Origin: an uncultured Alphaproteobacteria bacterium
GTDB lineage: Bacteria > Pseudomonadota > Alphaproteobacteria > VGEJ01
Assembly: GCA_913041535.1 (NCBI GenBank)
Contig: CAJWJK010000010.1
Location: 1-57,895 of the forward strand
Length of the DNA stretch: 57,895 nt
Direction: 5' to 3'
How positions within the stretch are numbered: the stretch's first letter is position 1; the number at the start of each line of letters is the position of its first letter. Below the pieces are notes generated by a model, which ran no database searches, was not told the DNA's origin, and was given only the letters and a program-made list of their open reading frames with translations. Shown here in pieces: positions 37,715 to 57,722 of the stretch. The translations under genes were made by a program, and so were the position numbers.

Positions 37715-37791
37715 GCGCCCGTAGCTCAGCTGGATAGAGCACCAGACTTCGAATCTGGGGGTCGGGAGTTCGAATCTCTCCGGGCGCGCCA
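37715..37791 (+). tRNA. tRNA-Arg (anticodon TCG)
   Basis: A complete 77-base cloverleaf: acceptor GCGCCCG/CGGGCGC, anticodon stem CCAGA/TCTGG with loop CTTCGAA (TCG), T arm GGGAGTTCGAATCTCTC, discriminator G and encoded CCA (37789-37791). Its 3' 46 bases (from the anticodon loop to just past CCA) are repeated 164 bp downstream. Confidence 0.98.
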
Positions 37792-37794
37792 ATT
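37749..37794 (+). repeat. 46-bp direct repeat, copy 1 (3' part of tRNA-Arg)
   Basis: This copy covers the anticodon loop, variable loop, T arm, acceptor 3' strand and CCA of tRNA-Arg plus three following bases. It is identical over 46 bases to 37913-37958. Confidence 0.95.
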
Positions 37795-37912
37795 TAGGGT
37801 TAATTATAAATAGTTTAGGGGGATGGTTTAAAGAAAACTGCGAGTTCCATGCTGGAACCCGCAGAAAATAAGTGGGGCGAGTGACGGGGTTTAAAATTAT
37901 GACCCCCAAACG
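37795..37912. other. 118-bp segment enclosed by the tRNA-Arg repeats
   Basis: It carries no gene or integrase. It includes a near-perfect hairpin CTGCGAGTTCC/GGAACCCGCAG (one A-C mismatch), and ends with GACCCCC (37901-37907), which can pair with GGGGGTC (37921-37927) of the second repeat copy. This is all that remains between the two repeats. Confidence 0.6.
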
Positions 37913-37958
37913 TCGAATCTGGGGGTCGGGAGTTCGAATCTCTCCGGGCGCGCCAATT
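37913..37958 (+). repeat. 46-bp direct repeat, copy 2 (tRNA-Arg 3' fragment, att-like)
   Basis: Exact duplicate of the 3' portion of tRNA-Arg without a 5' half, so it cannot be a functional tRNA. A displaced tRNA 3' end is the usual product of integration by a tRNA-targeting tyrosine recombinase. Confidence 0.9.
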
Positions 37959-37999: not shown

Positions 38000-38302
38000 A
38001 TGTATCTCGCAATGAATCGCTTTAAGGTGGCACTAGGTAAGGAGTTTGCTTTTGAACAGATATGGAAAAATCGAGAGACTAATCTAAAGAATGTAAACGG
38101 GTTTATCGAGTTTCATTTAATTAAGGGTAGCACAACGGACACTTACACCATCTACGCTTTGCATAGCACTTGGAAATCAGAATCTGATTTCACCAACTGG
38201 ACAAAATCCTAAGCATTTCGCTCTTTTCATAAAAGCGCTGGGCAACACCGTGAGGTTTATCTAGACCATCCAGTATTTGAGGGGTTTGAAGTCATAATAT
38301 AG
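38000..38302 (+). pseudogene. ABM-like monooxygenase gene interrupted by an in-frame TAA
   Basis: The frame starts at ATG 38000 (MYLAMNRFKVALGKEFAFEQ) and reads a typical small ABM domain with NGFIEFHLIKG, YTIYALHSTWKSESDFTNWTKS. A TAA at 38210-38212 then interrupts it, but the same frame continues without shift as AFRSFHKSAGQHREVYLDHP and FEGFEVII to TAG at 38302. This continuation is exactly the C-terminal part such proteins need; the expected residue at the stop is probably Glu (GAA to TAA). The upstream ORF alone would be 70 residues. Either a recent pseudogene or a base error; it lies 41 bp after the tRNA-Arg fragment. Confidence 0.8.
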
Positions 38303-56276: not shown

Positions 56277-57722
56277 ATGTCGGCAACATATAGAGACAGA
56301 CAAGACAGCAAAATCTACGGAAGCAGGTTGATTATCTTTCGTAGGAAAGACGCACAGGATAATGGGTCATTCTCGTATCGGGCAAAGATAGAGGGTCATA
56401 AGGGATACATTCGCAGAAGCATCAAGGAAACTGACCCTGATAAAGCGATGGTTCTGGCAGAGCAGGAATATGAAAATCTGCGAGTAAGGCATAAGGGCGG
56501 TTTCTCCCTTACAGAAATCTTCGTTGATAAGTTTTTTGATGCGTGGATAGAAACGCAAAAGACGCGTCTTACCGATAGTCGTTATAAGTGGAAGACCTCT
56601 GTTTATGAGCGGTATGTATCGGGGTTTATGGGGAAGAGAAACCTTACAGACCTCAACAAAAGTTTTGTTGATGGGTATTGGTCTTACCGACTGAACTTTT
56701 GGAACTCCAAAGAAGGTAAAGAACGCATACAACTCAACGAAAAACGGATGGGGTCAAAAACAAAGTCATCTCATAATGTCGCACAGAAACCTTCTTTTGC
56801 GACATTGCGAGCAGAGGCATCCCTGATAAATGAGATTTTGAGAGCAGCGGTTGATGAGGGGCATTTGTCTCGCACCATCAAAATCACCGCACAAGATGCG
56901 GTTTCCAAAGCAGACAGAATGGTTCAGCACAGAGATACATTCACATTGGAAGAGTGGCGAGTTCTTACTACCAATCTCTACAACTATTATCTGTGTCGGG
57001 GTCGTTGGAAGGATACTCGTATCAACTCCCTTCATCGTTTCCAAAGACATATGTTGCGAACATATGTTCTGTTGGCATCCTCAACAGGATTACGAACAGG
57101 TGAAATAAAAAATCTGCGATGGAGTGATTTTAGGATTGAGATAGATGATGAAGGCAAGAGTGTTCTATTAGTATCCGTAAGAGGTGAAACATCCAAAGTT
57201 CGTAGAGGCAGAACAGCAGTCGCACATAGTGAAAATATAATCGGTGTTTTGGATGAATATAAAGAAGCATCCCAACACACCGAAACCAACGACTTGGTAT
57301 TTTATTCTATCAAATCAAACGGAGAGACATTACCAGTTGATTTATCAACCAACTTCAAGTCATTCCTAAAACGATGTGATTATAAGGGCAGAGAAGAAGG
57401 GTTGCGATTATCCGTTGATGGAAAGGCAAGAACTCTTTACTCGTTGCGACATTTCTTTGCGATACAACGACTTCAGCAGAATGTTGATATTTACCAACTG
57501 GCAACCACGATGGGCACAGGTGTAACGCAGATACGCAATCACTATGGAAGGCACATTTCTGGTGATGCGTTCATCAAGGAACTCACCAAATACCAGAGCA
57601 AATCAGGTCAACACGCAAAGAACGCAGCAGTTCGCAAACTGGTGGATATGGTTGAGAGTGGTGTTCTAAACGAAGAGATTGCGTTAGACGCATTTAGACA
57701 GGTGGCAGAACGACGAGAATAG
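56277..57722 (+). CDS. tyrosine recombinase / phage-type integrase
   Basis: The 481-residue protein has an N-terminal SAM-like DNA-binding region (FVDKFFDAWIETQKTRLTD onward) and a C-terminal catalytic domain with Arg273 (STGLRTGEIKNLRW), box II YSLRHFFA with Arg391 and His392 (Tyr388 stands where the first His often is), and the nucleophile Tyr423 (NHYGRH). It would integrate and excise a mobile element. ATG 56277 with AAGG upstream is favoured; an in-frame GTG at 56178 is less likely. The Asn- and Lys-rich composition differs from its neighbours and suggests transfer. It is the first gene after rpsI. Confidence 0.93.
   Translation: MSATYRDRQDSKIYGSRLIIFRRKDAQDNGSFSYRAKIEGHKGYIRRSIKETDPDKAMVLAEQEYENLRVRHKGGFSLTEIFVDKFFDAWIETQKTRLTDSRYKWKTSVYERYVSGFMGKRNLTDLNKSFVDGYWSYRLNFWNSKEGKERIQLNEKRMGSKTKSSHNVAQKPSFATLRAEASLINEILRAAVDEGHLSRTIKITAQDAVSKADRMVQHRDTFTLEEWRVLTTNLYNYYLCRGRWKDTRINSLHRFQRHMLRTYVLLASSTGLRTGEIKNLRWSDFRIEIDDEGKSVLLVSVRGETSKVRRGRTAVAHSENIIGVLDEYKEASQHTETNDLVFYSIKSNGETLPVDLSTNFKSFLKRCDYKGREEGLRLSVDGKARTLYSLRHFFAIQRLQQNVDIYQLATTMGTGVTQIRNHYGRHISGDAFIKELTKYQSKSGQHAKNAAVRKLVDMVESGVLNEEIALDAFRQVAERRE

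Follow-up and report, generated by a model that had tools for sequence, protein, structure and literature searches.

How did two identical 3′ halves of one tRNA-Arg gene come to lie 118 bp apart, with no integrase gene between them? The locus that raises this question is part of a window of 57,895 nt, by which we mean the whole stretch of DNA analysed, from an uncultured alphaproteobacterium. The complete gene, tRNA-Arg(TCG), occupies positions 37715–37791 on the plus strand (ARAGORN; Rfam tRNA score of 70.1 bits), and a 46-bp block that starts at its first anticodon base and ends 3 nt beyond its CCA (37749–37794) recurs downstream, also on the plus strand, at 37913–37958. The two copies are identical at 46/46 positions and spaced 164 bp from start to start, with an approximate expectation of 3e-19 chance pairs of exact 46-mers in a window of this length. 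The displaced copy thus covers the tRNA from the anticodon region to the 3′ end, and the edges are abrupt on both sides of both copies, similarity ending immediately outside the block. An earlier note, made from the letters alone, had described the exact repeat, the 118-bp spacing and the lack of an integrase in the interval, and all three are borne out: there is no integrase gene in the 118 bp or adjoining it, the nearest in the window being at 56277–57719, and no phage-like genes are left in the interval.

A complete tRNA with a displaced 3′ fragment is the signature of islands placed at anticodon sites by tyrosine integrases, the complete gene being read here as the rebuilt tRNA on the attL side and the fragment as the attR side. 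Since the interval has neither an integrase nor room for one, a deletion scar is the reading that fits it best, and we posit that the site is probably what remains of a tyrosine-integrase element in the tRNA-Arg gene of which a later deletion spared only the two ends.

A reversed tRNA-His half within the interval

The 118 bp contain a tRNA remnant and a predicted terminator that the earlier note had missed. On the minus strand, 37910–37873 is, by sequence comparison, a decayed 3′ half of tRNA-His ending at its CCA: an ungapped alignment with the tRNA-His gene of the same genome shows 29/38 identities, against a best match of 22/38 among 1000 dinucleotide shuffles. The next best tRNA of this genome reaches 24, and when 300 shuffles were compared with its whole tRNA set the highest score was likewise 24. 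In 385 class genomes the 118 bp had only two foreign matches, both to tRNA-His 3′ ends. A comparison of this segment with phage, plasmid and satellite sequences matched nothing outside the tRNA part, and a phage, plasmid or satellite origin was therefore rejected. Two further candidates were set aside, namely an integron attC site, the outer repeats being of the wrong polarity (by eye), and a known RNA family, Rfam returning only tRNA and weak matches below gathering scores.

Structurally, the minus strand continues beyond the tRNA-His CCA with CTTATTTT, then a hairpin with a 12-pair stem and a 3-nt loop (37864–37838), and then TTTTCTTT; the fold z-score for 37826–37912 is −3.52. The hairpin that had been noticed in the enclosed segment is therefore real and, being followed by TTTTCTTT on the minus strand, reads as a predicted intrinsic terminator (37830–37864) downstream of the fossil tRNA-His end. 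By eye, the tRNA-His gene of genome G028 has a similar layout, with CTTATT, a different hairpin and a T-rich tail. The tRNA-His half itself has decayed, with TTTAAAC in the T loop and a broken T stem, beside a tRNA-Arg half that is perfect. That the interior is a coherent fossil tRNA-His end with its terminator, and that the feature, about 210 bp in all, sits well inside the contig, both argue against an assembly artefact, which we regard as extremely improbable even with an estimated contamination of 4.25% and with three other contigs (C11, C21 and C34; L006, L123 and L120) beginning inside tRNA genes.

The tRNA-His and tRNA-Arg 3′ halves are joined head to head, anticodon loop against anticodon loop, and this is why GACCCCC at the end of the segment can pair with GGGGGTC in the second copy, a pairing that had been pointed out before and that proves to be real. 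An inverted repeat with an 11-pair stem, at 37901–37927, runs across the tRNA-His/tRNA-Arg junction and is a candidate pair of core-type integrase sites; the anticodon stems of the two tRNAs are here one and the same inverted repeat, CCAGA/TCTGG. Neither IMG/VR nor the 384 remaining genomes of the class yielded another head-to-head His/Arg junction, and we found no convergent Arg/His gene pair as its possible source in 337 genomes, in which two other matches to the search pattern were without tRNA-like sequence between the pattern ends as printed. These searches bear on a reading in which nothing was deleted and the 164-bp unit (tRNA-Arg 3′ half, flank, terminator and reversed tRNA-His 3′ half) is itself a tiny integrated piece, a minimal circle served by an integrase in trans. 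Both ends of the unit do lie at anticodon loops, and no trace is left of anything larger, but with neither a further copy of the unit or junction in the 385 class genomes or IMG/VR nor a source pair among the 337 genomes, we consider this origin decidedly unlikely.

Integrative elements with the same signature

The genome was searched for displaced fragments with 3′-end queries from its 31 distinct tRNAs, each query combining the final 45 nt of the tRNA with 15 nt of flank. Besides a weak tRNA-His match in the window, clear fragments were found for tRNA-Thr(CGT), tRNA-Lys(TTT) and tRNA-Arg(TCG) only, and this search found none for the tRNA-Arg(ACG) gene on contig C4. The tRNA-Thr(CGT) fragment belongs to an integrative element split over two contigs (7161–7805 of L120 on C34; 1–1664 of L122 on C1), with a 49-bp duplicated block on C1 and C34 and a 20-bp arm repeat common to both ends. 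The gene adjoining the displaced fragment encodes an integrase that has Arm-DNA-bind_3 and SAM-like domains, whereas the tRNA side has genes of the HTH_17 and DUF5681 families. A second such element occurs in G001, the only genome of the same family that was compared, where tRNA-Arg(ACG) has a 52-bp displaced fragment beside an Arm-DNA-bind_3 integrase and both ends (4563–5348 of L139 on C203; L020 on C111) share a 24-bp double repeat, read as arm repeats. The earlier note had named, as support for a scar, loci of relatives in which the repeat flanks a full island; G001 offers part of this support, its island being flanked by 3′ ends of a tRNA-Arg gene, albeit a tRNA-Arg(ACG) that need not be orthologous to the gene in the window, and with the ends of the element, as in the tRNA-Thr case, on different contigs. 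Rhodobacter phage RcXuper likewise carries a tRNA-Arg 3′ half from the anticodon onward, 95 bp from its integrase gene. At the tRNA-Arg locus itself, a scan of GTDB contigs by way of the hexapeptide-repeat protein encoded upstream led only to distant genomes, the order being represented by two genomes, so that no relative showed this locus in either its empty or its filled state.

The attL/attR interpretation first offered for the repeat gains support from these two integrase-bearing elements, whose duplications (49 and 52 bp) match that of the window in position and nearly in length; the window thus holds an attachment duplication that has neither recombinase nor cargo, and its lineage is one in which elements of this kind occur. 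The window site lacks the arm repeats that the tRNA-Thr and G001 tRNA-Arg elements have at their two ends, and among the real sites examined none had a counterpart of the tRNA-His half at its left end, which counts against the scar. The agreement in block extent also bears on a rearrangement in which no integrase took part, with a replication or repair error at palindromic anticodon stems joining the 3′ half of a tRNA-His gene to an additional 3′ half of tRNA-Arg. The CCAGA/TCTGG repeat in both anticodon stems of this genome would lend itself to such an error, but the error would explain neither why the block has the extent of real attachment duplications of the same genome nor why a perfect tRNA-Arg half stands beside a decayed tRNA-His half, and we give it very little credence.

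A proposed history of the locus

We infer from these remnants that a larger element once occupied the tRNA-Arg site, that it was deleted, and that the tRNA-His half had an origin of its own. Mechanistically, the tyrosine integrase of an incoming element would have acted by crossover at the anticodon loop of a tRNA-Arg gene that, before the interruption, would have been followed directly by CGAGGTGTC. The element would have brought a new 3′ half (37749–37794), by which the tRNA was rebuilt, and the original 3′ half of the host would have been pushed to the far side (37913–37958). A later deletion would then have taken the element with its integrase, leaving 118 bp of its two ends. The right one would be a short arm (37795 to roughly 37821), and the left one (from roughly 37822 to 37912) would hold the decayed tRNA-His 3′ half and its putative terminator in reverse orientation. 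The anticodon stem of the tRNA-His half, to which the anticodon stem of the tRNA-Arg fragment stands as an inverted repeat, could have been the left core-type integrase site, and the half probably stems from a second attachment event at a tRNA-His gene, by accretion or target capture.

Evolutionarily, integration at tRNA-Arg seems to be younger than the capture of the tRNA-His half, since the tRNA-Arg half is unchanged whereas 9 of the 38 tRNA-His positions differ, part of this difference perhaps being one between lineages. The site is of a known kind and its composite make-up is unusual. A bolder version, which we think improbable, would have the lost element carry a two-faced attachment site, in which tRNA-Arg and tRNA-His 3′ halves stood head to head around one anticodon-loop crossover, such that both tRNA-Arg and tRNA-His genes would be open to it as targets, in opposite orientations, and the tRNA would be restored in either case. 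If the head-to-head junction did once work as an attachment site, it would show how an element changes or doubles its tRNA target.

The 3′ flank and the rare isoacceptor

The 30 bp that follow tRNA-Arg(TCG) (37792–37821, plus strand) recur after the tRNA-Arg(ACG) gene on C4, with 25/27 identical positions beyond the block and 95% identity overall between 37715–37821 and C4:19449–19555, and are a candidate element arm or an inherited tRNA trailer. As the C4 gene shares this flank and showed no displaced fragment, the flank could be a trailer inherited through gene duplication and not an element arm, a point against the scar. Within it, 37807–37818 (plus strand) is a 10/12 variant of TCAATRGGTTAG, a motif also found after the CCA at the attL side of both real elements (tRNA-Thr and the G001 tRNA-Arg). 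At a match of at least 10/12, TCAATRGGTTAG occurs at +6/7 or +16/17 after the CCA in 3/31 tRNAs here and 4/29 in G001, and at 10/12 or better in none of the upstream controls; two of the three tRNAs with displaced fragments in this genome have it at that threshold (p about 0.02, for a motif chosen post hoc), tRNA-Lys reaching 9/12. The motif is possibly a site for integrase arm binding, or else part of a host trailer that elements copied, and having been found after these loci were inspected it is a lead rather than a test. The two positions are one helical turn apart (G000, G001 and class loci L008–L036), in a minority of tRNAs.

The flank further bears on a tandem duplication of the tRNA-Arg gene, with subsequent loss of the 5′ half of the second copy. 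Tandem tRNA-Arg(ACG) genes exist in the class (G052 and G044), and genome G335 has a tRNA-Arg(TCG) with an ACG gene nearby. However, copy 2 is not followed by the 30-bp flank seen after copy 1, it is preceded by a reversed tRNA-His half and not by a decayed tRNA-Arg 5′ half, and both edges are abrupt and placed where integrase sites sit; such a duplication is thus an unlikely source of the repeat. In E. coli tyrT/rtT, too, the 3′ end of a tRNA is copied downstream of its gene, there as a tandem repeat unit; the window likewise has a 3′-end copy downstream, but a single one, cut abruptly at the anticodon and separated from the gene by foreign sequence.

Among the 385 class genomes, tRNA-Arg(TCG) of this stem type is represented by three genes (loci L131, L129 and L130), a fourth pattern match not being a tRNA, and in all three genomes there is a further tRNA-Arg, as a gene or a 3′ fragment, no more than about 1.2 kb away. 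It is as if the TCG isoacceptor arose from duplicated or integration-disturbed ACG genes. A switch of the anticodon from ACG to TCG by the integration itself was also considered. The changed base is precisely the first of the block, and few TCG genes are found in the class, but both junctions would need the same resolution, and the switch, though possible, is not needed.

Comparison with known systems

The tRNA-plus-fragment signature and the anticodon-centred class of attachment sites were defined with Islander (PMC4383910), and the islands described there share with the window site a complete tRNA followed by a 3′ fragment in the same orientation, with a block that begins at the anticodon; the window site differs in having no integrase and only 118 bp between the copies. 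Because Islander rejects candidates that are shorter than 2 kb or lack an integrase (PMC4383910), and island finders thus discard intervals of this kind, counts of past integrations are likely too low. Partial tRNAs have been explained as fragments left by integrated elements (PMC9897764), and integration would likewise account for the partial tRNA here, whereas at the window site only 118 bp separate the full tRNA from its fragment, and another tRNA fragment, in reverse, lies within them. In Methylopumilus, repeats of the tRNA-Lys 3′ end (its last 20 bp) mark additive islands that carry genes (PMC10872708); repeated tRNA 3′ ends would mark integration points in the window as well, but the window interval holds no genes. 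Finally, tRNA-dependent lysogeny uses an integrase attB inside a tRNA gene, with a common core of only some 10 bp that does not restore the tRNA (PMC10865867), in contrast to the 46-bp block of the window, which restores a complete tRNA. The window site suggests that tRNA integration scars can be readable even at such a small size, and that they can hold the fossil attachment half of a second tRNA.

Neighbouring genes and other tRNA loci

Several further features were seen around the locus and elsewhere in the genome. A gene for an ABM-family monooxygenase (38000–38302) begins 42 bp beyond the displaced tRNA-Arg fragment and has an in-frame TAA after residue 70, so that it looks like a pseudogene. 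The phage-type integrase ORF at 56277–57719 lies just downstream of rpsI at the contig end and is probably part of another island cut by that end; as it adjoins rpsI and has no link to the tRNA-Arg site, it was rejected as the responsible enzyme. The contig starts of C11, C21 and C34 in tRNA genes are possibly assembly breaks at repeated tRNA 3′ halves. The tRNA-Lys(TTT) fragment (2190–2235 of L121 on C13) is a decayed orphan 3′ half, 89% identical over 46 bp, beside which no element was recognised. Two tRNA-Ser(TGA) genes, in L063 (C6) and L067 (C25), lie in a 502-bp duplicated region of 79% identity, and the copy on C25 has an altered T loop.
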